Source of the DNA: Halobacteriales archaeon QS_9_68_17
Lineage (GTDB): Archaea; Halobacteriota; Halobacteria; Halobacteriales; Natronoarchaeaceae
Assembly: GCA_003023565.1 (NCBI GenBank)
Contig: PXSA01000037.1
Coordinates: 64,504 to 100,662, forward strand
Reading direction: 5' to 3'
Length of the DNA stretch: 36,159 nucleotides
Shown here: positions 301 through 25,400 of the stretch, in pieces
Position numbering within the stretch: the stretch's first letter is position 1
Layout of the letters: each line of letters begins with the position of its first letter
The notes under the pieces: model-generated
What the model saw: only the letters and a program-made list of their open reading frames with translations
What the model was told of the DNA's origin: nothing
The model's database searches: none
Program-made: the position numbers and the translations under genes

Positions 301-1046
301 TATTCGTCCTCCTCCCCTTCGAGGAGACCGAGTTCGTCGAGGTGGGCCTCGACGCGGTCCTCGTCGAGTTCGTCGTACCGCTCGGTTTCGACGTCGATCG
401 TGGCGACGCCGACGCCGGACGGCTCGAACTCGCCGTCCTTGACCGAGGCGAGCGCCTCCAGCGCGAGGTCGATCCCCGTGTCGAGGTCCGCGCCCTCTTC
501 GTAGTGCTCTTCGAGGTGTTCCTGGATCTCCCCGCGGTCGCGGCCGACGGCCAGCGCCTTCCACTCGTTGGGAGTGCCGCTGGGGTCGGTCTCGAACAGG
601 CGAGGCTCGCCGTTCTCGACGCCGCCGATCAGCAGCGCGACGCCGAACGGGCGCGCGCCGCCGGTCTGCGTGTACTGCTGGATGTGGTCGGTGACCTCCT
701 TCGTCAGCGTCTCGACGCCGACCGGCTCGCCGTAGCGGATCTGGTTGACCTGCGTCCGGCGGCGGGCGAAGTCGATGAGCTGGCGGGCGTCTGCCACGTG
801 GCCGGCGCTCGCGATGCCGACGTGGTCGTCGGCCTTGTGTAGCTTCTCGATGCTGTTCGGCTCCATCAGCCGCGAGCGGAGCTGCTTGTCGACGACGAGG
901 ACGACGCCGTCCGCGGTCCGGACGCCGATGCTCGCCGTACCGCGCTTGACCGCTTCGCGGGCGTATTCGACCTGGTACAGGCGACCGTCCGGCGAGAAGA
1001 TGGTGATCCCCCGGTCGTAGGCCTGCTGTTGGGATTGTCCTTGCAT
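300..1046 (-). CDS. psmA: Proteasome alpha subunit
   Basis: Structural alpha subunit of the 20S proteasome, forming the outer gated rings that dock the PAN/Cdc48-type ATPases. The 248-residue length fits the family. The N-terminus carries the alpha signature: a short gate segment, then AYDRGITIFSPDGRLYQVEY and AREAVKRGTASIG. It lacks the N-terminal threonine of beta subunits, as expected. The C-terminus is highly acidic (LLEGEEDE), typical of halophiles. It is the first gene of a two-gene operon with psmB, the stop overlapping the psmB ATG. No convincing Shine-Dalgarno precedes the ATG, and the promoter within the long region upstream was not pinned down. Nothing is missing or broken. Confidence 0.97.
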   Translation of the reverse strand: MQGQSQQQAYDRGITIFSPDGRLYQVEYAREAVKRGTASIGVRTADGVVLVVDKQLRSRLMEPNSIEKLHKADDHVGIASAGHVADARQLIDFARRRTQVNQIRYGEPVGVETLTKEVTDHIQQYTQTGGARPFGVALLIGGVENGEPRLFETDPSGTPNEWKALAVGRDRGEIQEHLEEHYEEGADLDTGIDLALEALASVKDGEFEPSGVGVATIDVETERYDELDEDRVEAHLDELGLLEGEEDE

Positions 1047-1667
1047 GATAGAAAGCCGTGTTGACCTTCACCTCGGGTTAAGGCGGGGTCGTTCAAGTAC
1101 TTTTTGTCTAAGCTGGCTAACTCTACCGGATGGTTAGGCCGGTTCGGGCTAACTCAGCGAACCGGTGACCGGCCGTTCCACACTCCGACTCCCGGAACCA
1201 AAACCCCTCGATCGCCTGCAAACCTGACCTGTACGGTCGCCGAGTCGGTCCCTCTCGTGCGCCGGTTCGCGGCGACTTCCAGCAGGGACGGGCCGCTGCT
1301 TGCGCGGGCGGTCGACCATCGACCGACGTTCGCGGCGCGTGCTAACATGTCTCGCGGGCGACCCGAGCGCGGCGGCCCGGCCGGCGCGGGGCGTCGGCCC
1401 GGACGAGGAGTCCGACCGTATCAGTCCGGCAGCGGAAGGGGTGAAACCCGACATACCGAAGACGAGGGGACAACCCGTCGGCGGACCGCACCGGCCCGTC
1501 TCCTCCGTGCGAGAGGAGTACGAAGACCGAGTACCGGGCCGCACGCGAGGGCGGTCCGGGAACCGGCGGACGGTCGTACGGACCGGGGAACGCGTCGCCC
1601 GCCCGGATCTGGCGCTTTCCGCGACGGCGCGGTCGACGCTTTTAGTCCGCCGCGTTCTTTTACGAAC
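1047..1667. promoter_or_regulatory. Gene-free 620 bp upstream of psmA with direct repeat
   Basis: I see no credible gene here: open frames exist but are arginine- and proline-rich shadows. Next to psmA the 9-mer GGCTAACTC occurs at 1115-1123 and again at 1147-1155, a 32-base spacing (about three helical turns). GTTAGGC at 1133-1139 forms an imperfect inverted partner to GCTAAC. The position 70-110 bases from the psmA ATG suits a regulator site (inference). At the other end CTTTTA at 1639-1644 is a good TATA box for the plus-strand gene at 1668. Confidence 0.4.
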
Positions 1668-1934
1668 GTGCTCGAACTCTACCAGGCGGAAGGCTGTCCG
1701 CACAGCGAATCGGTCCGCGAGAAACTCACCGACCTCGGACTCTCCTACGTCGCGCATAACCCGCGTCGCCCGGGCGAGGACCCGGAGGTGCTGAACGAGC
1801 AGGTCCACGACGAACTGAAAGCGGTCGCCGAGGACCAGCTCCCGGTGCTCGTCGACCACCAGCACGGCGAAGTGGTCGCGGAGAGCGAGGAGGTTCGGGA
1901 CTACCTCGCCGAGCGCTACGGCGAAGTCCGCTAA
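1668..1934 (+). CDS. Glutaredoxin / GST N-terminal domain small protein
   Basis: An 88-residue single-domain thioredoxin-fold protein. The start LELYQAEGCPHSESVREKL is the beta-alpha opening of glutaredoxins and GST N-terminal domains, with an active-site motif CPHS (one cysteine, Cys10) rather than CPYC. LPVLVD near residue 64 is the cis-proline strand that contacts the thiol substrate, and VRDYLAERY closes the domain. A monothiol role in thiol exchange or redox protection is likely but the partner is unknown. The open frame extends far upstream, but the protein-like part begins at the GTG at 1668, and a TATA box (CTTTTA, 1639-1644) lies 24-29 bases before it, which supports a leaderless GTG start. 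It stands alone, not in an operon. Confidence 0.85.
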   Translation: MLELYQAEGCPHSESVREKLTDLGLSYVAHNPRRPGEDPEVLNEQVHDELKAVAEDQLPVLVDHQHGEVVAESEEVRDYLAERYGEVR

Positions 1935-2210
1935 CGGCCGACGCGGGCGGCGCGCACTCCCGGGTCGACCGCACCGCTCTGGCGTTCCCGAGTACCGCGA
2001 TCCGCCCGGTAAGCGACCGAGCCGGTACTGTCGCCCGTTCGCCCCTGCTCGCCGCCCCTCGACCCCCGCCTGTAAGTTATGGCTATCCAATCCGGTGGCC
2101 ACGAATATTCGAGAGCGGACTCACATGCGGCTTCGGAGTGTGTTGGCTGAACTGAACCATAGGGTTTTAGTGGGAGCCCGTCGTACGTGCCGATAGGGGG
2201 TGGTGATAGT

Positions 2211-2438
2211 ATGATCGACAGTCTCGGCAACGGCCGACGCACGGCGCGCGACGCCGGAGTATCGCGCTACGACCTCGTTCTGGCTGTCATCCCGGCAGCG
2301 CTGTTGCTCTCGCTGCTCGCAGGTCATCTGTTCTCGGTCCCGTCCCGCACCGCGCTGGTCGCCGGTGCCGCGGTCGGTCTCGTCGCGATGACGGACGGTC
2401 TCTTCCGCAACCCGCCGGAAGGGACCGGCCCAGCCTGA
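2211..2438 (+). CDS. Small two-helix membrane protein, unknown function
   Basis: A 75-residue hypothetical protein. After an N-terminal soluble stretch it has two hydrophobic segments (about residues 20-40, VLAVIPAALLLSLLAGHLF, and 45-60, TALVAGAAVGLVAMTDG) and a short polar tail, so an inner-membrane hairpin is expected. The ATG at 2211 is preferred over a GTG at 2187 because GGTGAT (2202-2207), complementary to the 3' end of archaeal 16S rRNA, lies just before it and a TATA-like GGTTTTAG is at 2162-2169. Nothing in the sequence indicates what it does; small membrane proteins of this kind are common and usually unannotated in haloarchaea. Confidence 0.7.
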   Translation: MIDSLGNGRRTARDAGVSRYDLVLAVIPAALLLSLLAGHLFSVPSRTALVAGAAVGLVAMTDGLFRNPPEGTGPA

Positions 2439-2541
2439 TCCCGTTCGGTTCGCCGACCGCGTCCGATCGCCCCACAGAGATAAGCGTCTCTCCGCCGTAG
2501 TACGCGCACCGATACCCGGCCGAGGCCGGGGTGGGGAACTC

Positions 2542-3924
2542 ATGACGGAGAGTGTCGATCCGGCGACCGAGGGGACCCTAGACTCGTACGAGACGCACGG
2601 CGAGGGGGACGTCGACGACCTGCTCGACCGCGCGAGCGACGCCTTCGAGGAGTGGCGCGAGCAGCCGACCGCAGAGCGCGAGGCGCTGCTAGAGCGGGCC
2701 GGAGAGGTGCTGCGCGAGAACAGCGACGAGTACGCCGGGCTGATGACCGTGGAGATGGGCAAGCCGGTCGAGCAGAGCCGGTCGGAGGTCGAGATGTGCG
2801 CGTGGGTCCGTGACTTCTACGCAGAGCGCGCGGCGGCGTTCCTGCAGGACGAGCACGTCGGCGGCGAGACGGACGCCGACACGTTCGTCGCGCGCCAGCC
2901 GCTCGGCCCCGTGCTCGCTATCATGCCGTGGAACTTCCCGTTCTGGCAGGTGTTTCGCTTCGCCGCGCCGACGCTGACGGCGGGCAACGTCGGCCTGCTC
3001 AAGCACGCCTCGAACGTGCCCGGCTGCGCGAAGGTCATCGAGGACGTGTTCCGGGAGGCCGGCTACCCAGAGGACGTCTTCGCGACGCTGATGGTCGGCT
3101 CGGACGCTATCGGCGTGAGACGCGACGGCCGGGTCCGCGCCGTCACCATCACCGGCAGCGAGGGCGCGGGTCGCAACGTCGCCGAGACGGCCGGGAAGAC
3201 CCTCGAGAAGCACGTCCTCGAACTCGGCGGGAGCGACCCGTTCTTCGTCCTCGACGACGCGCCGCTGGAGCGCGCCTGCGAGGTCGGGGTCCGGGCGCGG
3301 GTCATCAGCTCCGGGCGGTCCTGCATCGCCGCGAAGCGCCTTATCGTCCACGAGGACGTGTACGACGAGTTCCTCGACGGCTTCCTGAACGAGACGGAGG
3401 CGCTGCGGACGGGCGACCCGACCGACGGCGACACCGACGTGGGACCGCAGGCCCGCGAGGGCCTCGTGGAGGACCGACACGAGCAGGTCGAGGCGACCGT
3501 CGAGCAGGGGGCCGAGGTGCGGCCCGGCGGCGAACCGATGGACCGCGACGGCCACTTCTACCCGCCGACCGTGGTCACCGACGTCCCCGAGGGCTCGCCC
3601 GCCGACAAGAAGGTGTTCGGTCCGGTCGCGACCGTCTTCGAGGTGCCCGACGGGGCGGCGGCGATATCGAAGGCCAACGATATCGACTACGGCCTCGGCG
3701 CGAGCGTCTGGACGGAGGAGTTAGAGCGCGTCGCCCGGCGGTTCGAGTCCGGCCTCGCGTTCGTGAACGAACTCGTCCAGTCCGACCCGCGGCTGCCGTT
3801 CGGCGGCGTGAAAGACTCCGGCTACGGTCGCGAACTGGCGAAACAGGGCATCCGCGAGTTCGTCAACGAGAAGACCGTCCGGGTGTCTCACGGCCCGAGC
3901 AAGGAGGGCGATCCGGCCGAATGA
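2542..3924 (+). CDS. NAD(P)-dependent aldehyde dehydrogenase (succinate-semialdehyde type)
   Basis: A 460-residue cytoplasmic aldehyde dehydrogenase that oxidises an aldehyde to its acid with NAD(P)+. The substrate-binding and cofactor landmarks are in order: PWNFPFWQVFRFAAPTLTAGN, the general base Glu227 in LELGGSDPF, the nucleophile Cys261 in SSGRSCIAAKR, and FGGVKDSGYGRE near the C-terminus. The last motif and overall length place it near succinate-semialdehyde dehydrogenases (GabD/AldY-like); the real substrate cannot be read from the sequence. Its stop overlaps the ATG of the ThDP-dependent enzyme (ATGA, 3921-3924), so the two are co-translated. A pathway in which the ThDP enzyme makes or consumes the aldehyde is an inference from this pairing. 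Confidence 0.9.
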   Translation: MTESVDPATEGTLDSYETHGEGDVDDLLDRASDAFEEWREQPTAEREALLERAGEVLRENSDEYAGLMTVEMGKPVEQSRSEVEMCAWVRDFYAERAAAFLQDEHVGGETDADTFVARQPLGPVLAIMPWNFPFWQVFRFAAPTLTAGNVGLLKHASNVPGCAKVIEDVFREAGYPEDVFATLMVGSDAIGVRRDGRVRAVTITGSEGAGRNVAETAGKTLEKHVLELGGSDPFFVLDDAPLERACEVGVRARVISSGRSCIAAKRLIVHEDVYDEFLDGFLNETEALRTGDPTDGDTDVGPQAREGLVEDRHEQVEATVEQGAEVRPGGEPMDRDGHFYPPTVVTDVPEGSPADKKVFGPVATVFEVPDGAAAISKANDIDYGLGASVWTEELERVARRFESGLAFVNELVQSDPRLPFGGVKDSGYGRELAKQGIREFVNEKTVRVSHGPSKEGDPAE

Positions 3925-5498
3925 CGAACGCCGCCGACCTGCTGGCGGAGTGCCTGGAGGCGGAGGGCGTCGACTACGTCTTCGGCATCCCCGGCGAGGA
4001 ACTCGAGGACGTCCTCTTCGCCCTGCGGGACTCCGACGTGGACTTCTTCCCGGTGCGCCACGAGCAGGCCGCGGCGTTCATGGCCGACGTCCACGGCCGC
4101 GTGACCGGCGACGCGGGGGTCTGCCTCTCGACGCTCGGCCCGGGCGCGACGAACCTGCTGACGGGCGTCGCCGACGCCCACCTCGACAAGAGCCCGCTCG
4201 TCGCCATCACGGGACAGGGCGGCCTCGAACGCCTGCACAAGGAGAGCCACCAGGCGCTGGACGTCGTCGACACGTTCGAGCCCATCGTGAAGTGGAACAC
4301 GCAGGTGAGCGCGCCCGAAACGGTCCCGGAGTCCGTGCGCAAGGCGTTCAAGCTGGCCGAGCACGAGAAGCCCGGCGCGACCCACCTCGAGGTCCCCGAG
4401 GACGTCGCGGCCGAGTCGATCGACGCGACGCCGCTCCCGACGCGCGAGCGGGTGCGCCGACCCGACCCCGACGAGGCGTCGCTCTCGCGCGCCGCCGACC
4501 TGATCGCGGGGTCTGACCAGCCCATCGTCCTCGCGGGCAACGGCGCGGTCCGGACCCGCGCCGCCGAGCAGCTGCGCGCGTTCGTCGAGACGACCAACGT
4601 TCCGGTCGTCGCGACGTTCATGGGGAAGGGGGCGGTCTCGGACGCCGACGAGCACTCGCTGCTGACGCTCGAATCCGGTCCGGACGGGGAGTCGGCGACG
4701 GCGATCGACCGCGCCGACTGCGTGGTGGCCGTCGGCTACGACGTCGCCGAGCACGACCCCGAGGAGTGGAACCCCGGCCCCGAGAAGACGGTCATTCACG
4801 TCGACGCCGAACCCGCCGAGGTGTACCGCCACTACAACCCGGACGTGGAGGTGGTCGCGGACGTCTCCCGGGCGCTGGAGGAACTGACCGGCCGCCTCTC
4901 GACGGAGTGTTCGACGTGGTGGACGGACCTCCGCGAGCGCATCGCGGACGACGTCGGCGTGCGGCCCGACGCCGGCGACCCCGTGACGGTCCGGCGGGTC
5001 CTCCCGCTGCTGCGCGACGCGATGGCCGACGAAGACGTCCTGATCTCGGACGTGGGAAGCCACAAGATGGCGATCGCGAAGCGCTTCCCCGCCTACGAAC
5101 CGAACACCTGTATCATCTCGAACGGGCTCGCGAGCATGGGGATCGCCGTCCCCGGGGGCGTCGCCGCGGACCTCGCGCTGGACGAGGACGTCGTGGTCGC
5201 GACGGGCGACGGCGGGTTCCTGATGAACGCCGCCGAGATCGAGACGGCGAGTCGCCTCGGCTGCTCGTACACGGTCGTCGTGTTCCGCGACGACGACTAC
5301 GGGATGATCTCGAAGCATCAGGAGCAACACCGGAGCGAGCACTTCGGGACGGCGCTCTCTAACCCGGACCTCGTCGCCTTCGCCGAGAGCTTCGGGATCG
5401 AGGCCCACCGCGCCGACGACTGGGAAGCGATAGAAGCGACGCTGAACGACGTCGCGTCGGCCGACGAGATGACGCTCGTCGAGGTGCCGCTCGACTGA
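3921..5498 (+). CDS. Acetolactate-synthase-like ThDP-dependent enzyme
   Basis: A 525-residue member of the POX/acetolactate synthase family, which uses thiamine diphosphate to condense or cleave 2-oxoacids. The three domains are visible: Pyr domain with YVFGIPGEELEDVL and the cofactor-activating Glu48 in VRHEQAAAFM; a central domain (about 190-340); and the PP domain with GDGGFLMNAAE from residue 429. KESHQALDVVDTFEPIVKWN resembles catabolic AlsS-type acetolactate synthases more than IlvB. The ThDP motif usually ends NN, but here reads RDDDYGM. No regulatory (IlvN) subunit is nearby. The start at 3921 has a strong Shine-Dalgarno (GGAGGGCGAT, 3903-3912) inside the upstream gene. Product specificity is uncertain. 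Confidence 0.85.
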   Translation: MTNAADLLAECLEAEGVDYVFGIPGEELEDVLFALRDSDVDFFPVRHEQAAAFMADVHGRVTGDAGVCLSTLGPGATNLLTGVADAHLDKSPLVAITGQGGLERLHKESHQALDVVDTFEPIVKWNTQVSAPETVPESVRKAFKLAEHEKPGATHLEVPEDVAAESIDATPLPTRERVRRPDPDEASLSRAADLIAGSDQPIVLAGNGAVRTRAAEQLRAFVETTNVPVVATFMGKGAVSDADEHSLLTLESGPDGESATAIDRADCVVAVGYDVAEHDPEEWNPGPEKTVIHVDAEPAEVYRHYNPDVEVVADVSRALEELTGRLSTECSTWWTDLRERIADDVGVRPDAGDPVTVRRVLPLLRDAMADEDVLISDVGSHKMAIAKRFPAYEPNTCIISNGLASMGIAVPGGVAADLALDEDVVVATGDGGFLMNAAEIETASRLGCSYTVVVFRDDDYGMISKHQEQHRSEHFGTALSNPDLVAFAESFGIEAHRADDWEAIEATLNDVASADEMTLVEVPLD

Positions 5499-8179: not shown

Positions 8180-8545
8180 GCATTGCCAGCCGTCACCCGC
8201 GAACAGGTCCGGGACGGGAAGAAGGCGTTCCAGCGGTACGGGCTGATGAACCACGGGTCGGTACTCGGCAACGGCGCGTACTACGACATCGACTACACCG
8301 CCGACGCGCTCGACCCGAAGGTCGAGCACATACGGTCGTACTACGCCGAGGAGCGCGGTCGTGAACGAGCGGGTCCAACAGGACCCGGAGAGCCGGGCCG
8401 CGAGCGACGAGAGACGGTACTCCGAGGCCGAGCGGTGCGCCCACGACCAGGTGCGCCGGACGTACGTCGAGCGCTACCACGAGGGCGACGCCGAGCGCGG
8501 CGTCCCGGCCGGGATGGTCGAGTCCGAGGAGGAGGCCGAGGAGTC
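8180..8545 (+). pseudogene. norB: Relic of nitric oxide reductase large subunit (NorB, qNOR type)
   Basis: An N-terminal fragment of the quinol-dependent nitric oxide reductase, which reduces NO to N2O in the membrane. PAVTREQVRDGKKAFQRYGL, MNHGSVLGNGAYYDIDYTA and KVEHIRSYYAEER are the conserved periplasmic N-terminal region of NorB. After about 8358 homology continues in another frame (YSEAERCAHDQVRRTYVERY, then HEGDAERGVPAGMVESEEEA). So there is a frameshift or deletion, the first transmembrane helix is missing, and everything after about residue 150 of a roughly 750-residue protein is gone. It ends at the junction with an oppositely oriented multicopper oxidase relic. Confidence 0.8.
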
Positions 8546-17953: not shown

Positions 17954-18123
17954 GGCGGCGTACCCCGCGCTGTCGGCGCACACCCCCACGAGGGGGTCAC
18001 CTTGCCGTACGCGGGGCTTCGCACCGACGCCGAATCAACCGTTCTCAGGCTGCGATCCCAGGCTATTGCGTCGAAACCGCCGAGGCGAAACCGTGATGGG
18101 CGGCGCTCGGCAAGGGTCCGGTA

Positions 18124-19101
18124 ATGGACTGCAACAAGTGCGACCGCGAGGCGGTCATGCACGCGGCCTACTCCGGGTCGCACCTCTGCGAAGACCACTT
18201 CTGCGAGTCGGTGGAGCGCCGTGTCCGCAGTCGCGTCCGCGAGGACAACCTGCTTCCGCGCTCGGCGACGCCCGAGGACCCCGAGACGTGGGTGATAGGT
18301 CTCTCCGGCGGGAAAGACAGCGTCGTCCTCATGCGGATCCTGGACGAGACGTTCGCGGAGGACCCCCGCGTGGAGACGGTCGCCTTGACGATCCACGAGG
18401 GGATCGAGGGCTACCGGGACGAGAGCGTCGCGGCCTGCGAGGAACTCGCCGCCGACCTCGACATCCGCCACGAGATAGTCTCCTACGCCGAGGAGTTCGA
18501 CGTGCGGATGGACGACGTAGTCGAGAACGACCCCGAGGACATGGCCGCCTGCGCGTACTGCGGCGTGTTCCGCCGCGACCTCCTCTCGCGGTACGCCGAG
18601 GAGTTCGGCGCGACGAAACTTCTGACGGGCCACAACCTGGACGACGAAGCCCAGACCGCCCTGATGAACTTCCTCGAAGGCGACGTCGCCCAGATGGCCA
18701 AGCACTTCGACGCCAGCCTCGGCCCCTTCGGCGACGGTCCCGACGCCCGCGACGAGCAAGACGAGTTCGTCCCCCGAGCGAAACCGCTCCGCGACGTTCC
18801 CGAGAAGGAGGTCGCCCTCTACGCCCGTCTGCGGGACCTGCCCGCCCACATCACGGAGTGTCCCCACTCCAGCGAGGCCTATCGCGGCGAGATCCGGGAA
18901 CTCCTGCTCGGTCTGGAGGAAAACCACCCCGGCGCTCGCCACTCGATCATGGCCGGCTACGAGGAGATGGCCGCGATGGCCGCCACCCGCTACGGCGACG
19001 ACGGCGACCGCGACCTGAACGAGTGCGTCGAGTGCGGGGCGACGACGACGAGGGAGAAGTGTCGGAAGTGCGCGCTGGTCGAATCGGTCCACGCTGTTTA
19101 G
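18124..19101 (+). CDS. ncsA: tRNA 2-thiolation adenylase (NcsA/Ncs6-type)
   Basis: A 325-residue PP-loop protein of the TtuA/Ncs6 family, which activates wobble-uridine tRNA with ATP and installs sulfur delivered by ubiquitin-like SAMP proteins. An N-terminal zinc finger has Cys3, Cys6, His20 and Cys22. The PP-loop is LSGGKDS (60-66), followed by CAYCGVFRR with Cys143 and Cys146, then TGHNLDDEAQTALMN, HITECPHSSEAYR with the third conserved Cys, and a C-terminal zinc finger CVECGATTTREKCRKC. This matches Haloferax NcsA, which also neighbours ftsZ2. The last ten codons recur in diverged form 55 bases downstream (19127-19156). It converges with ftsZ2. Confidence 0.92.
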   Translation: MDCNKCDREAVMHAAYSGSHLCEDHFCESVERRVRSRVREDNLLPRSATPEDPETWVIGLSGGKDSVVLMRILDETFAEDPRVETVALTIHEGIEGYRDESVAACEELAADLDIRHEIVSYAEEFDVRMDDVVENDPEDMAACAYCGVFRRDLLSRYAEEFGATKLLTGHNLDDEAQTALMNFLEGDVAQMAKHFDASLGPFGDGPDARDEQDEFVPRAKPLRDVPEKEVALYARLRDLPAHITECPHSSEAYRGEIRELLLGLEENHPGARHSIMAGYEEMAAMAATRYGDDGDRDLNECVECGATTTREKCRKCALVESVHAV

Positions 19102-19126
19102 CGTAGGCCGTCGAGCAACGGGCATA

Positions 19127-19156
19127 GCTCTCGTGGAATCGGTCCACGCCGTGTAG
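19127..19156 (+). repeat. Diverged second copy of the ncsA 3' end
   Basis: These 30 bases read A L V E S V H A V stop, identical in translation to the last codons of ncsA (19072-19101). The two copies differ at five bases, every one a synonymous third position (GCG/GCT, CTG/CTC, GTC/GTG, GCT/GCC, GTT/GTG). The copy is out of frame with ncsA and has no start, so it is not expressed as a gene. Confidence 0.8.
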
Positions 19157-19180
19157 CGTCCGACCGCTCACCGCCGTCGT

Positions 19181-19224
19181 GTAAGACGCCTCGCGCTCGT
19201 CTCTTCACCCTCGCCGCGTAAGAC
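19181..19224. promoter_or_regulatory. Two GTAAGACGC repeats between ncsA and ftsZ2
   Basis: GTAAGACGC occurs at 19181-19189 and 19218-19226, start-to-start 37 bases. The 7-mer GTAAGAC is the same element found in the cdrS-ftsZ2 promoter region. This pair sits in the tail-to-tail gap of ncsA and ftsZ2, where no start codon needs a promoter, so its role is unclear. Confidence 0.45.
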
Positions 19225-19286
19225 GCGTCGTGGCCGTCCCCACACCGATACGCTCTCAGCGTAAAGCCGCGGCTACTGGACCGTCG

Positions 19287-19292
19287 AAAAAA
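19287..19292 (-). terminator. T6 terminator downstream of ftsZ2
   Basis: Reading the minus strand, six consecutive T follow the ftsZ2 stop codon by about ten bases. This is a typical archaeal intrinsic termination signal. Confidence 0.5.
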
Positions 19293-19301
19293 GCGTCGGA
19301 C

Positions 19302-20495
19302 TTACCGGATGACGTCGAGGCCGTTGCTCTTCTCGACCTCGTCGCGTCCGCCGTCGCTCTGTGCGCCGTTAGCCCCGTGGACGTGCTCGTGGCCCACGTT
19401 CTGGCTGGCGTCGAAACTCGCCTCGTCGACGCCCTCCAGGCTCTGCCGGGACTTGTTCGCCTGCTTCTGGGTCGTCGGCCCGAGCACCTGCGCGCTCTGA
19501 ACGCCCGTCATGATCGCCATGACGCGCACCTTGCCCTTGTAGTTCTCCTGTATCCGTGCGCCCCAGATGACGTTCGCGCTCGCTTCCAGGCGCTCGGTGA
19601 TGTTGTTGGCGATGCCCTCGGCCTCCTTCAGCGTGAGGTCGGGGCCGCCGGTGATGTGGACGAGGCCGCCGCTCGCGCCGCGGTAGTCGACGTCGAGGAG
19701 CGGGTGGCTCATCGCGTCGTTGACGACCTCGCGGGTCTTGTTCTTGTCCTGGGTCTCGCCGACGAGCATCACCGCGACGCCGCCCTGATTCATGATCGTC
19801 GTCATGTCCGCGTAGTCCAGGTTGATGAGCGACGGCTGGGTGATGGTCTCGCTGATCCCCTTGACGGTCTCGGCGATGATCTGGTCCATCACCGAGAACG
19901 CCTTCCCGATCGGCAGGTTCGGGACGTAGTCGAGCAGCCGGTTGTTGTCAAGCACGATGATCGAGTCGGCCTCCTCGCGGAGTTTCTCGAGGCCCTCCTC
20001 GGCTTTCACCGTGCGGGCGCGCTCGACGTTGAACGGCGTCGACACCATGCCGACGACGATAGCGCCCTGCTCGCTCGCGATCTTCGAGACGACGGGCGCG
20101 GCACCGGTGCCGGTCCCGCCGCCCATGCCCGCGGTAACGAACACGAGGTCGGCGTCGCCGAGCACTTCCTTGATGGTCCCCTGAGCCATCTCGGTCGCGC
20201 GTTCGCCCATCGACGGGTCGCCGCCCGCGCCGAGGCCGTTCGTGAGCGACTTGCCCACGAGGATCTTCGTGTCGGCCTCGATCATCTTCAGGTGCTGCTT
20301 GTCGGTGTTGATGGCGACGGTCTCCGCGCCGTCGACACCGATGTTGTACAGGCGGTTGACGGTGTTGTTGCCCGCACCGCCCGCGCCGACGATGACGATC
20401 CGGGGGTCCCCGAACTCGTCGTCGTCGTCGGACAGCTCCATGTCGCGCTGCTCCTCCTCGGCGTTTTCGAGCGCGTCCTGAACGATGTCCTGCAT
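19302..20495 (-). CDS. ftsZ2: Cell division protein FtsZ2
   Basis: A 397-residue tubulin-family GTPase; in haloarchaea FtsZ2 works with FtsZ1 to constrict the midcell ring. The GTP-binding elements are [18 protein letters not shown] (34-51), the tubulin signature GGGTGTG at 125-131, and the T7 synergy-loop region [17 protein letters not shown] that completes the GTPase site of the next subunit. The N-terminal acidic extension with [10 protein letters not shown] and the C-terminal peptide NGLDVIR identify it as FtsZ2 rather than FtsZ1. The ATG lies two bases after the cdrS stop, so it is translated from the cdrS message. A T6 tract follows the stop. Confidence 0.97.
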
Positions 20496-20497
20496 GG

Positions 20498-20677
20498 TTA
20501 CACCTTCGCCCAGTTGCGCTTGCTGGAGCTCTCCTGTGAGCTCTCGCTCTGTTCGTTGATCATTTCACGGACCGCCGACCGGATCGCCTCGCTCCGGTTC
20601 GGGAACTCGCCCGTTTCGACCAGCTGTTCAACCTCGTCGATCTGCTGTTTCGGGATTCGCAGTGTCACACGCTCCAT
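20498..20677 (-). CDS. cdrS: CdrS, short ribbon-helix-helix regulator of cell division
   Basis: A 59-residue ribbon-helix-helix protein: the DNA-contacting strand [20 protein letters not shown] is followed by [17 protein letters not shown] (the two helices) and a Ser/Glu-rich tail. CdrS is conserved directly upstream of ftsZ2 in haloarchaea, where genetic work in Halobacterium and Haloferax has shown it to be a transcription regulator affecting division. Here it is two bases ahead of ftsZ2. The leader upstream is about 130 nt, with GTAAGAC motifs and a possible purine-rich ribosome site GGGGAAG. It is a dimeric fold, so palindromic operators are expected. Confidence 0.93.
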
Positions 20678-20896
20678 AGTTTACTTCCCCTTTGGGTAAG
20701 ACGGACATGCATGAGTTCATCACACGCACGGTGTCTTACACCACGGAACCCCTGTCCGGGGCACCGATCCGTTTTCTTCTCCCCGCTGTGTAAGACAACC
20801 GTCTTACGCGAATCTACACAGCACGGCATATGTAATAAAAGTATCGACCGGTGTATGACAGGTACCGTAAACGGGGTCTTCAGGCCCTAATACAGG
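20678..20896 (-). promoter_or_regulatory. cdrS-ftsZ2 promoter with palindromic GTAAGAC operator
   Basis: The minus strand has a strong TATA (TTTTATTA, about 20834-20840), placing the start point near 20811. Just downstream is a perfect palindrome, GTAAGAC-AACC-GTCTTAC (20790-20807). Two further copies follow in the leader: GTCTTAC at 20733-20739 and GTAAGAC at 20696-20702. An operator overlapping the start of transcription suits repression or autoregulation by a ribbon-helix-helix dimer such as CdrS or CdrL (inference; the protein bound is not shown by the sequence). Confidence 0.7.
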
Positions 20897-21436
20897 TCAT
20901 GTCGAGTCTAACACGTCCGCGGCCGGTGTCCGACGACCGCACCCCGGACAGAACGCCCAGTCCGTTCTGAGTTCGTCGCCGCAGTCGCAGAACACTCGGT
21001 GGGTGGCCTTTTCGCCGCAGTTCGGGCAGTACACGTGGTCCGAACTGACCGACTCGCCGCACTGGCCGCACGTATTACTCGGTTCGGCCGAGCGGTCATC
21101 TCTATCGCGCGACTCTGTCTTACGCCCGGTAGCGTCGGACGCCTCGACCGACCGGTCGCCGTCGAGCGTGACGGTTACGTTGATGTCTCGCCCGCCGCTC
21201 GCCGGTGCTCGCTCGCCGAGTCGGCGTTCGACGAGCGCGTCCACCCGCTCCGCGACGACCTCGTCGATCGTCCCGTCGCGTACGTCGCGGTCCCCCGCGC
21301 CGGCGCGACCCGACGCCTGCGCCCGCGCGTCGAGGTACTCCCGGAGCGCCTCCCGCATCACCTCGCTCTTCGAGGCGTCGAACTGCTCCAGTTCCTCGAT
21401 CAGGTCGTCGTCCGCGCGAAACGTTATCTTGCTCAT
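20897..21436 (-). CDS. cdrL: CdrL, ribbon-helix-helix protein with double zinc ribbon
   Basis: A 179-residue regulator. Residues 1-45 are a ribbon-helix-helix domain (MSKITFRADDDLIEELEQFD, then SKSEVMREALREYL). A variable acidic linker follows, and residues about 130-170 form a double zinc ribbon: CGQCGESVSSDHVYCPNCG, then CDCGDELRTDWAFCPGCG. This is the architecture and location of CdrL, the long partner upstream of cdrS-ftsZ2 in haloarchaea. The ATG at 21436 begins the RHH strand directly; an in-frame GTG at 21466 would add ten residues with no domain content. One GTCTTAC copy lies inside the gene (21117-21123). Divergent from tRNA-Tyr. Confidence 0.88.
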   Translation of the reverse strand: MSKITFRADDDLIEELEQFDASKSEVMREALREYLDARAQASGRAGAGDRDVRDGTIDEVVAERVDALVERRLGERAPASGGRDINVTVTLDGDRSVEASDATGRKTESRDRDDRSAEPSNTCGQCGESVSSDHVYCPNCGEKATHRVFCDCGDELRTDWAFCPGCGRRTPAADVLDST

Positions 21437-21539
21437 CGGCGGTTCGGTGTCCGTATGTGCTATCACACGCTTTCTATTTCAATCTTCCCGCGCCGTCGGA
21501 CAACCGTCTGTCACCGACGGCGCAGGGACGAACAACAAC

Positions 21540-21546
21540 CCTTAAG
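21540..21546 (+). promoter_or_regulatory. TATA box of the tRNA-Tyr gene
   Basis: CCTTAAG lies about 25-30 bases before a start point near 21570, eight bases upstream of the mature 5' end at 21578. Spacing and composition fit an archaeal tRNA promoter. Confidence 0.6.
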
Positions 21547-21577
21547 TCCAACAGAGCAGCTACGTGTAACCGCTTGC

Positions 21578-21651
21578 CCGCCCTTAGCTCAGACTGGTAG
21601 AGCAGTCGACTGTAGATCGACTTGCCCCCCGTTCAAATCGGGGAGGGCGGA
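21578..21651 (+). tRNA. tRNA-Tyr (anticodon GUA)
   Basis: A full cloverleaf can be folded by eye. Acceptor CCGCCCT (21578-21584) pairs with AGGGCGG (21644-21650), discriminator A at 21651. The D arm contains AGCTCAGACTGGTAGAGC, the anticodon arm TCGACTGTAGATCGA carries GTA in a seven-base loop CTGTAGA, and the T arm is CCCCG-TTCAAAT-CGGGG. No intron is present, and CCA is not fully encoded (ACC then TT). It lies between divergent cdrL and the ferredoxin region. Confidence 0.96.
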
Positions 21652-21971
21652 CCTTCTTCCCGGTCGGAGCATAGCGGAGGCCGATTCCCCGCTTTCACGC
21701 CACACAGTCCTTTACCCGGCGGTCTACCGTTCCGCGGTGACCCTCCGAATTCGGATCAGAACTGGGTTCCGGTCGCACCCCCTCACAGTCATGCGAATCC
21801 CGTTGTTGGCGGTAGTGCGTGATGCTCCGACGCGAGTGCGGTGGTCCCGTCCGGGCGACCGGCGGGAGTGACCCCGACCGCGACGGGCGGATGGAGGAGG
21901 CTGCGCGCGTCGAGTTCGGCGTCGAGGGCGACGCCGACGTTCGCAATGCTCTCGTAGCCGGTCTCGTGAGA

Positions 21972-22051
21972 CGAGCGCCACGGCGGCGACATCTGGGTCG
22001 ACTCCGAACCCGGCGAGGGGTCGACGTTCCGCTTCACGCTTCCGGCGGTCG
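21972..22051 (+). repeat. Left arm of a perfect 80-bp inverted repeat
   Basis: These 80 bases are the exact reverse complement of 22444-22523. The two arms enclose 392 bases holding the ferredoxin gene. The sequence derives from the end of the histidine kinase ATPase domain. Confidence 0.92.
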
Positions 22052-22071
22052 GTAGCGCGGGGACGCAGTGA
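21973..22071 (+). pseudogene. Histidine kinase C-terminal relic in inverted repeat
   Basis: In one frame this reads [20 protein letters not shown], then [12 protein letters not shown] and a stop, the last strands of a histidine-kinase ATPase domain. It is identical in DNA to the end of the neighbouring kinase up to AV, then differs (GSAGTQ instead of EDE). Upstream of the 80-bp block no clear kinase homology continues, so only the tail was copied or retained. Its TGA ends six bases before the ferredoxin ATG. Confidence 0.75.
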
Positions 22072-22077
22072 TCGGTC

Positions 22078-22419
22078 ATGAGCGAGGCGATCCCGATCAC
22101 AGTCGTCGCGGGCGGCGAGGAGACGACCGTCGAGGTGGAGCGGGGAGCGAACCTGAGAGACGCGTTGCTCGACCGTGGCTTTCCGGTCTATGGGACCCTA
22201 TCGCGGTACGCCAACTGCGGTGGCCGGGGGCTGTGTTCGACCTGTACCGTCGAGGTCGACCCCGCGCCGGAACCGACCCACTGGCACGACGCCGCGGCCG
22301 TCAGATTCGGCTATCCGCGGCTCTCCTGCTGTATCGAGGTCGAGGAGCCGATGACGGTCGGGCTTCTGGACAAGCACGTCTGGGGGCAGGTGTTCCCGCG
22401 CCGGCTGTCCCCGGACTGA
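22078..22419 (+). CDS. 2Fe-2S ferredoxin-domain protein
   Basis: A 113-residue plant-type [2Fe-2S] ferredoxin, an electron carrier. Three cluster cysteines are in NCGGRGLCSTCTVEV (C-x5-C-x2-C) and the fourth is in RLSCCIEV, which has two adjacent cysteines. N-terminal ITVVAGGEETTVEVERGANL forms the first beta hairpin. It is cytoplasmic with no signal peptide. The start at 22078 is six bases after the stop of the kinase-tail relic; GTGATC just before may act as a weak ribosome site. No partner reductase or oxygenase is adjacent. The whole gene lies inside an 80-bp inverted repeat, so its orientation could be switchable. Confidence 0.88.
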   Translation: MSEAIPITVVAGGEETTVEVERGANLRDALLDRGFPVYGTLSRYANCGGRGLCSTCTVEVDPAPEPTHWHDAAAVRFGYPRLSCCIEVEEPMTVGLLDKHVWGQVFPRRLSPD

Positions 22420-22432
22420 GGGGCGGCCGCCC

Positions 22433-25400
22433 TCACTCGTCCTCGACCGCCGGAAGCGTGAAGCGGAACGTCGACCCCTCGCCGGGTTCGGAGTCGACCC
22501 AGATGTCGCCGCCGTGGCGCTCGACGATGCGCTCACAGAGCGCGAGGCCGACGCCAGTGCCCGCGTGTTCGTCGACGGAGTGGAGGCGCTGGAACACCTC
22601 GAAGACCCGCTCCTGGTCCTCGGGCGCGATGCCGATGCCCTCGTCGCTGACCGAGACGACCCGCTCGGCACCGGAGCGTTCGGCTTCGACGCGAACCCGC
22701 GGCGGTTCGTCGCCGCTGTACTCCAGCGCGTTGCTGAAGAGGTTCTGGAACAGTCGGCGCAACTGCCGCTCGTCGGCCTCGACGCGAGGAAGGTCCTCGA
22801 CGCTCACGGCGGCGTTTCGTTCCGCGATCTGGACCTGCAGGTCCGTCCGAACGTCGTCGAGAACGTCGTTCAGGTCGACCGGTTCAAGCGGGTCGCCAGC
22901 CGTTTCGACCCGCGAGTACGCGAGGAGGCTGTCGATCATCTCGCGCATCCGCTCCGCGCCGTCGACGGCGAACGCCAGGAACTCGCGGCCCTCCTCGTCG
23001 AAGTCGGCCGCGTACCGCTGTTCGATGAGCTGGAGGTAGCTGGACACCATTCTGAGCGGTTCCTGCAGGTCGTGAGAGGCGGCGTAAGCGAACTGTTCGA
23101 GCCGTTCGTTCGACTCCTCGAGTTGCCGCTCGCGTTCGAGCTGGTCCGTGATGTCGACCGCGAAGCTCTGACCGGCCGTTATCTCCCCGTCGGCGTCGCG
23201 CAGCGGCGTCGCCCAGACGCGGTAGGTCCGCCCGCCGAGCGTGGAAACGACGCTGTCCGTCTCGCCGTTCAGCGCCGCCCGGAAGATCGGTTCGACGTCG
23301 TCGGCGGTGTCCGGGGGGAGGGCGTCCCGGACGGTCCGGCCTTCGAGGTCCGCCGCGTCGGGGTCGATGTCGTCCCACATCGTCCCCTCGACCAGCGTGT
23401 ACCGGCGGTCCTCGTCGAACACGCCGACGCCGCCGTTCGGGAAGTTCTCGACGAGGGTGCGGTAGCGCTGCTCGCTCTCCTCCAGTTTGCGCCGGTACTC
23501 CCGCCGCTCTGTCACGTCCGTCAGCGTCACGACGCCCCGGACCACCTCGCCGCGCTCGTCCCTGATGGGCATCCCGTCCGCCATGGCGATCCGCCGTTCC
23601 CCGTCGGCGGCCTCGACCTCGAACGCGTCGGGTTCCGCGACCTCCTCGCCGCGGAGGACGCGGGCCATGGTAATATCGTCGGTCGCCACCGGTCGGCCGG
23701 AGTCCGCCCACCGGATGTCGTAGCGGTCGTACTCCGTTACCGACTCCGCGTCGAACACTTCGCCGCCCCAGATCTCCCGCGCGGTCTCGTTCGCCTCGAC
23801 GAGTTCGCCGTCCGCGTCCGCGACCATGACGCCGACCGGCAGGACCTCGAACAGGGTTTCGAGCTGGTCCTTGTGCCGTTCCAGCTCTCTCTCGGCCCGT
23901 TTCCGCTCGGTGATGTCGATGAGCGCGCCGGGGAACGAGACGGGGTCGCCGTCCGCATCACATTCCACGTGCCCGCGGGCGACCACCCAGCGGAGTTCGT
24001 CGTCGGCGTTCCAGACGCGGTACTCGGCCTCGTATTCGCCGCACGTCTCGACCGCGTCCTCGATCTTCCGCCGGACGCGCTCGCGGTCGCCCTCGTAGAT
24101 CGAGGAGACGAACCGTTCGAGCGACGCGTCCCCGCTGGCCTCCTCGGGGTCGACGCCGAACGTTCCGGCGAGCGAGGGTCCGGCGATGAACTGGTCGTCG
24201 GGGATGTTCCACTCCCAGGTGCCGACAGCGCCGGCCTCCGTCGCGGCCTCCAGTTGCGTCTTGGCCTCGCGTAAGTCCCGTTCCCGCTCTTTGCGCTCGG
24301 TGATCTCCTGAGACATCCCCATGGCCGCGAAGACATCGCCGTCCTCGTCGCGGACCGGGACCACGCGGAACTGGTAGACGCGGCCGTCGGACTCGTGTTC
24401 GAACGACCCCGACTCGCCCTCGAAGGCGGCCTCATAGCGCGGGACGAGCGTCTCGGCCAGCGCCGGCGGCAGGGCTTTCCGGGCCGGTAACCCCTCCAGT
24501 TCGTCGATCGCGTCCACGCCTTTCGGCGGCGTTCCGCCGATGGTTCTGTACCGGAGGTCCTCGTCGACGAGCGCGACCGCGCCGTTGGGGAACTGCTCGA
24601 CGAGCGTCCGGTACTGTCGCTCGCTGCGCTCCAGGGCGCGCTGGCGTGCCCTGCGTTCCGTGATGTCCTGCACCATGATCATCCCCCTGAAGATGTCGCC
24701 GTCGTCCTCCTCGACCGGGAGCGCGTACACCGACCAGTGTCGGCCGTGGAACTCGATCTCGAAGGAGTTCGTCTCCCCGCGGAGCGCGGCGCGGAAGTTG
24801 GACTCGAACTCGTCGGCCAGTTCCGGGGGGTAGCGTTCGCGGACGGTCTGCCCGACGACCTCTTCCGTCGCGGTGCCGATGTCCTCGAACGCCTCTCCGC
24901 CGGCGGCCGTGTACCGCAGGTCCTCGTCGAACAGCGCGACCGCGCCGTTGGGGAAGTTCTCGACGATCGTCCGGTACCGGCGCTCGCTCCTCTGGAGTTT
25001 CCGCTCGTACTCCTTGCGCTCGGTGATGTCGATGATGACGCCTTCGAGTACCACCTCGCCGTCGTCGACGATGGCGCGTCCGTGGTTTCGCACCCACCGC
25101 ACGTCGCCGTCGGCGGTCTCGATGCGGTAGGTCACGGAGAACTGCTCTCGTTCCTCGATACCTCGCTGGATCTCCTCCCAGAGGGTCTCGCGGTCCGCCT
25201 CGACGACGATCTCGGTGCCGTACGACACGTTCCCGCGCTCCAGCGCCTCGGCGTCGTACCCGGTCAGTTTCCTCGCTCCCTCGCTGACGAACGCCATCGG
25301 CCACTCGCGCTCGTTCCGGCAGCGATAGACCATGCCGGGAACGTTGTCCATCAGCGTCGAGAGCTGTCGCCGCTGCTCGCCGAGCTTTCGCTCCATCTCC

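Follow-up and report, generated by a model that had tools for sequence, protein, structure and literature searches.

A perfect inverted repeat around a haloarchaeal ferredoxin gene, probably the scar of a templated inverted insertion

How did a 2Fe-2S ferredoxin gene come to lie between two perfectly complementary copies of the 3' end of a histidine kinase gene, and can the segment between them invert? The question is raised by one locus in the window, which is the whole 36,159-nucleotide stretch of haloarchaeal DNA that was analysed. The original prediction took the two copies as the arms of a possible invertible switch. The analysis presented here favours another origin, in which the inverted repeat is probably a one-off scar: at a rearrangement junction next to a tRNA-Tyr gene, a templated inverted insertion would have left it behind. 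In what follows, G000 is the genome containing the window and G001 is a relative from the same genus.

The two arms and the source of the copy

The predicted perfect 80-bp inverted repeat around a complete ferredoxin gene was found again, with the same coordinates and identity: the two arms (Table 1), of 80 nt each, are 100% complementary and are separated by a spacer of 392 nt. A chance origin of the 80-nt match is out of the question, because the next longest perfect inverted repeats in the sampled genome are of 66 and 33 nt. RNA spanning both arms is predicted to form a long hairpin (z -13.6), as expected from their complementarity. The right arm had been attributed to the end of a histidine kinase gene with nine PAS domains, and it does consist of the last codons of that open reading frame, in which the nine S-box stretches were counted with TIGR00229 and the HisKA and HATPase_c domains come from Pfam. 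The left arm, described as a copy of this tail standing by itself, is confirmed as such as well; its outer edge is sharp, with a TGA in frame at 21967-21969 and no continuation of the kinase sequence in the bases 5' of it.

Table 1. Positions in the window of the features discussed
Feature	Position	Strand	Description
tRNA-Tyr (GTA)	21578..21653	+	ARAGORN; G001 synteny spans the gene and stops 9 bases beyond
Stretch without G001 counterpart	21663..21971	.	G001 holds 5.56 kb of other genes here
Left arm	21972..22051	+	Kinase 3' end copied in inverted orientation (derived); encodes 26 residues; missing before the G001 ferredoxin
Remaining ferredoxin upstream region	22052..22077	+	G001 homology restarts at 22052 (pairwise alignment) to 22058 (blastn)
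2Fe-2S ferredoxin, 113 aa, intact	22078..22419	+	Pfam Fer2, 8.6e-07; 88% identical to G001
PAS histidine kinase, 1374 aa	22433..26557	-	9 S-box stretches, HisKA, HATPase_c; orthologous position in G001
Right arm	22444..22523	-	Original kinase 3' end; 95% over 77 nt to the G001 kinase tail, in the orthologous place

The adjoining kinase is taken as the source of the left arm, because the other kinase tails of the same genome are only 73-88% identical to it (88, 86, 84 and 73%). A miniature element of the MITE type was considered and rejected: dispersed copies are absent, and apart from the arms themselves the genome matches the arm sequence at four places, which are read as kinase tails (this was shown for the C20 kinase tail and is presumed for C31, C37:229091 and C22). 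The direction of copying is shown by the comparison with relatives: the right arm is the original and the left arm the derived copy. The left arm is absent 5' of the ferredoxin in G001, the only relative found to have the syntenic pair, in which ferredoxin and kinase are oriented as in the window. A ferredoxin match is present in 21 of 40 genomes (own genome included), the closest being that of G001 (88%), followed by G007, G013 and G003 at 79-83%. The kinase adjoins the ferredoxin in one of 35 ferredoxin loci, that of G001; L100 has a weak match at a distance of about 6 kb, and none was found in the other 33, which are to be read with the span of the loci in mind (3.3 to 16.3 kb), as a kinase farther away would escape detection. 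These 35 loci, tested with the kinase C-terminus, are 31 of the 39 GTDB loci plus L010-L013, with L106-L113 left out. The ancestral state is thus read from G001, as the one syntenic relative, and from an upstream element at -36 that is present in other genera.

It could be argued that the left arm is instead what is left of another kinase gene, convergent with the present one, and that gene conversion has homogenised the two. The kinase tail of G008 runs on as PAVGS..., which resembles the PAVGSAGTQ of the left arm, and similar kinase tails are present elsewhere in the genome. However, the in-frame TGA and the lack of kinase homology 5' of the arm speak against such a remnant, as do the 35 ferredoxin loci, none of which has a kinase-tail match 5' of the ferredoxin (E up to 1e-6), and the upstream region of G001, which bears the -36 element instead. 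This explanation is the least probable of those considered.

The copy is young. The two arms differ at 0 of 80 positions, whereas about 27% of third codon positions differ between the window and G001 (54 of 200 in the kinase, counted in the stretch before its tail, and 30 of 114 in the ferredoxin). This contrast means that the left arm is a recent copy or a recently converted one, and it bears out the earlier claim that the identity of the arms reflects a recent duplication (or one kept by recombination). If the left arm drifts freely and conversion does not reset it, the age of the copy would be under about one sixth of that of the split from G001.

The tRNA-Tyr junction and the ferredoxin upstream region

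Homology with G001 extends up to 9 bases past the tRNA-Tyr gene (by blastn, window positions 18083-21662 align with positions 873-4409 of the G001 locus L067 at 89%) and is found again from 22058 across ferredoxin and kinase (about 85%), and the interval between tRNA-Tyr and ferredoxin measures 5,564 bp in G001 against 395 in the window. The copy is therefore placed, as judged from one syntenic relative, at the junction where G001 sequence is missing. The 5.56 kb may have been lost from the lineage of the window or gained in G001. There is no sign that it is located elsewhere in the incomplete G000 assembly: a misjoin was rejected after the 5.6 kb of G001 was sought in G000, which gave just 13 weak matches, the best with E 1.8e-7 and 77% identity.

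A source for 21654-21971 was sought in 40 genomes, including its own (E up to 10), and nothing convincing was found among many weak, GC-rich matches, the best of which outside the own genome reaches 77% over 73 nt in G003. The same stretch has no match in phages or in plasmids, and the left junction has no exact match in viral contigs. The open reading frames that overlap the stretch 5' of the left arm matched no Pfam family; one of them matched kinases in 27 plasmid records by tblastn, a result put down to the arm being translated antisense and not to a gene. The region downstream of the tRNA-Tyr looks unstable, because G004, which belongs to the same genus, carries about 10 kb behind the same tRNA-Tyr gene (L073:4046-14480, G004:C1), with a gene of the phage integrase family inside. 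This segment looks like an integrated element, as the tRNA 3' end is repeated (36 bp, 94%) where it stops. Matches in G004 and in Halostella pelagica plasmids (CP040679, CP040680) share their end coordinates, which suggests Halostella as the genus of G000.

On the other side of the left arm, homology with G001 restarts within about 6 bases of its inner edge. Upstream of the ferredoxin genes of relatives, a 14-nt consensus, GGTAGAACCACGTG, was recognised; it was derived from the same sequences that it scored, and its count in relatives is descriptive. Among 21 relatives, hand-picked from the 35 ferredoxin loci, 11 carry the element with at least 10 of 14 positions at -35 or -36 of the start, G001 scoring 13 of 14, and the upstream regions of the other 10 score below 10 or have it at other positions. 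In six loci, L010 (G001), L077, L078, L080, L082 and L083, the consensus is matched at 13 or all 14 positions, and its distance to the ferredoxin start is fixed. The best score in the window is 7 of 14, at -63, and in 2,000 shuffles of its upstream region exactly 7 was obtained 839 times and more than 7 in 1,081 cases, while 33 shuffles reached 10 and none 12. The main point of this motif test is the contrast in score between G001 and the window, and by this measure the -36 element is shown to be missing from the window relative to G001. The element looks like a promoter or a regulator site, a promoter role being suggested by its position. The copy occupies the expected place of the element, because homology with G001 restarts only at its inner edge (Table 1). 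The pairwise alignment also pairs part of the left arm with the G001 bases TTCCCGCCGGCAG; this pairing is taken to be chance, although it blurs the inner edge of the arm. Scans for sigma-70 promoters and terminators, which are uninformative for archaea, found none.

Inverted repeats elsewhere and the question of assembly error

A sample of 1,547,921 bases of G000, scanned singly in 82 stretches (54% of 2,882,595), holds three perfect inverted repeats of at least 30 nt whose arms stand 20 nt to 3 kb apart; the arms measure 80, 66 and 33 nt. The 66-nt pair belongs to a dispersed repeat and is bordered by N runs. The G001 sample (41 stretches, 807,502 bases) yielded no perfect inverted repeat of at least 30 nt, its longest having 26 nt, and the 39 GTDB loci (548,413 bases) hold one, of 59 nt. 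The remaining G000 pair, at L135:13697-13826 (G000:C20), has perfect 33-nt arms 64 nt apart, one of them within a gene that is longer by about 100 bp at this point in G001; the frame is broken here and open in G001, and the same gene carries a further 8-nt deletion upstream. In shape this pair repeats the 80-nt locus. With two events in 1.55 Mb and zero in 0.81 Mb, the numbers are too small to claim a difference between the genomes. Repeats of other kinds were also seen. G000:C37 contains, at L131:10928-12766, direct repeats (35, 95 and 57 nt, all perfect) that lie in register about 1.6 kb apart, and in another haloarchaeal MAG two hairpin-like elements (L087:7862-7974 and 8346-8399) flank a ferredoxin gene and share one 18-nt inverted repeat, with one mismatch in one of its four copies; they are unlike the arms of the window.

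The identity of the arms could also arise if the left arm had been introduced by the assembler, through an assembly or gap-closing error in a scaffolded short-read draft (the short-read origin is a guess). G000 is a draft of 42 contigs and 2.88 Mb with a completeness of 89%, and it has 18 N runs in 1.55 Mb (some of them maybe not gaps) versus 1 in 0.81 Mb of G001. Both inverted copies are 100% identical and located where G000 lacks sequence that G001 has, and two reports describe reads with fold-back or palindrome artefacts (PMC12870357, PMC6218980). The window, however, contains no N, and an artefact would have to be supported at two separate junctions, which a single fold-back read should not provide. 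Only two such copies occur in the 1.55 Mb sample, in which a pervasive fold-back artefact is not seen, and the gene on C20 bears its extra small deletion in the manner of a decaying gene. An assembly error is thus unlikely, though its chance is appreciable, and if it did occur, the locus would serve as a useful warning on perfect inverted repeats in draft genomes.

The proposed insertion, inversion and comparable systems

An inverted copy of neighbouring sequence, as expected of a templated inverted insertion, is present at the locus. This preferred reading is favoured because the gene pair of G001, oriented as in the window, has no left arm, and because the second pair, of 33 bp, also lies at a deletion junction relative to G001. 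It is proposed that repair or replication reached the rearrangement junction downstream of tRNA-Tyr, where synthesis would have jumped to the other strand close by, using 80 nt of the kinase 3' end as template before it returned to the original strand just 5' of the ferredoxin start. The inserted copy would thereby have displaced the former ferredoxin upstream region, including the -36 element. Template switching may have been the mechanism, and ferredoxin expression could be reduced or altered in consequence. No microhomology was assignable at the left-arm junctions in the alignment with G001, which offers no ancestral sequence for comparison on the tRNA side. A single local templated inverted insertion explains all the observations. 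If real, it would be a recent archaeal case in which a local templated inverted copy has overwritten a likely promoter, and long arms of this kind would be raw material for future invertible switches.

In the original prediction, recombination between the arms flips 22052-22443 and swaps the C-terminus of the kinase (EDE to GSAGTQ). Such a flip would also put the ferredoxin in an operon with the kinase. Inverted repeats do flank a segment here, as in invertons, and the arms are perfect over 80 bp. Homologous exchange across 80 bp is feasible, which counts for such a switch. The predicted change of the kinase end from PAV-EDE to PAV-GSAGTQ was reproduced by inversion in silico, in which the kinase stays open with the tail PAV-GSAGTQ-stop and 6 nt separate this stop from the ATG of the ferredoxin, a fit that also favours inversion. 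Moreover, the haloviruses phiCh1 and phiH1 are reported to change proteins by inversion, but phiH1 has a XerD-type gene within its segment (PMC6210493). In the window no recombinase was recognised among 16 open reading frames of the neighbourhood scanned with Pfam (6 of the 16 without any family; 203 are listed for the window). The assembly shows a single orientation, and the comparison with relatives, made with G001 as the one relative, gave this same orientation and no left arm. For this one relative, the result agrees with one of the outcomes that the original prediction had named as refuting it. Furthermore, the arms are coding sequence and their identity is accounted for by recency. The switch part of the prediction is therefore unsupported, and a functional inverton is improbable at this locus. 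A shade less probable again is the idea that the repair scar acts as an accidental new switch by homologous recombination, without a dedicated recombinase, and is a phase-variable redox/sensor unit at birth. If this were true, a flip would make the element-less ferredoxin the second gene of a kinase-ferredoxin operon, along with the exchange of the kinase C-terminus.

The literature search, as far as the texts of the papers were available, matched no paper to this locus, and the following comparisons draw on parts of the sources cited. The invertible tail-fibre segment of phiCh1 and phiH1 is likewise haloarchaeal, with inverted repeats around a segment whose flipping would exchange protein ends or alter how a gene is joined to its start, but it carries a XerD-type recombinase gene, whereas none was found among the scanned frames of the window, for which one orientation is known (PMC6210493). 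In bacterial invertons, inverted repeats likewise bound a short segment; the arms in the window differ in being a recent coding copy, absent in G001, with no recombinase seen nearby (PMC5903667, PMC11892184). The templated inverted insertion proposed here has closer likenesses in the templated inverted duplications of yeast (PMC11724301) and in template-switch mutations (PMC7954356), in which a short inverted copy from a local source also stands at a junction. The yeast duplications arise by fold-back at breaks and are mostly of about 5-34 nt (PMC11724301), so that the 80 nt of this archaeal locus exceed most of them; its mechanism would be template switching, and its microhomology is unassigned. 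Among haloarchaea, mutants of Haloferax volcanii show microhomology-mediated end joining with deletions (PMC7521656). Plasmids of Halobacterium, such as pNRC100, also contain an inverted duplication tied to deletion and insertion, but that duplication spans 40 kb or 32 kb and has transposons at the ends of the region, whereas that of the window spans 80 bp (PMC10264941).
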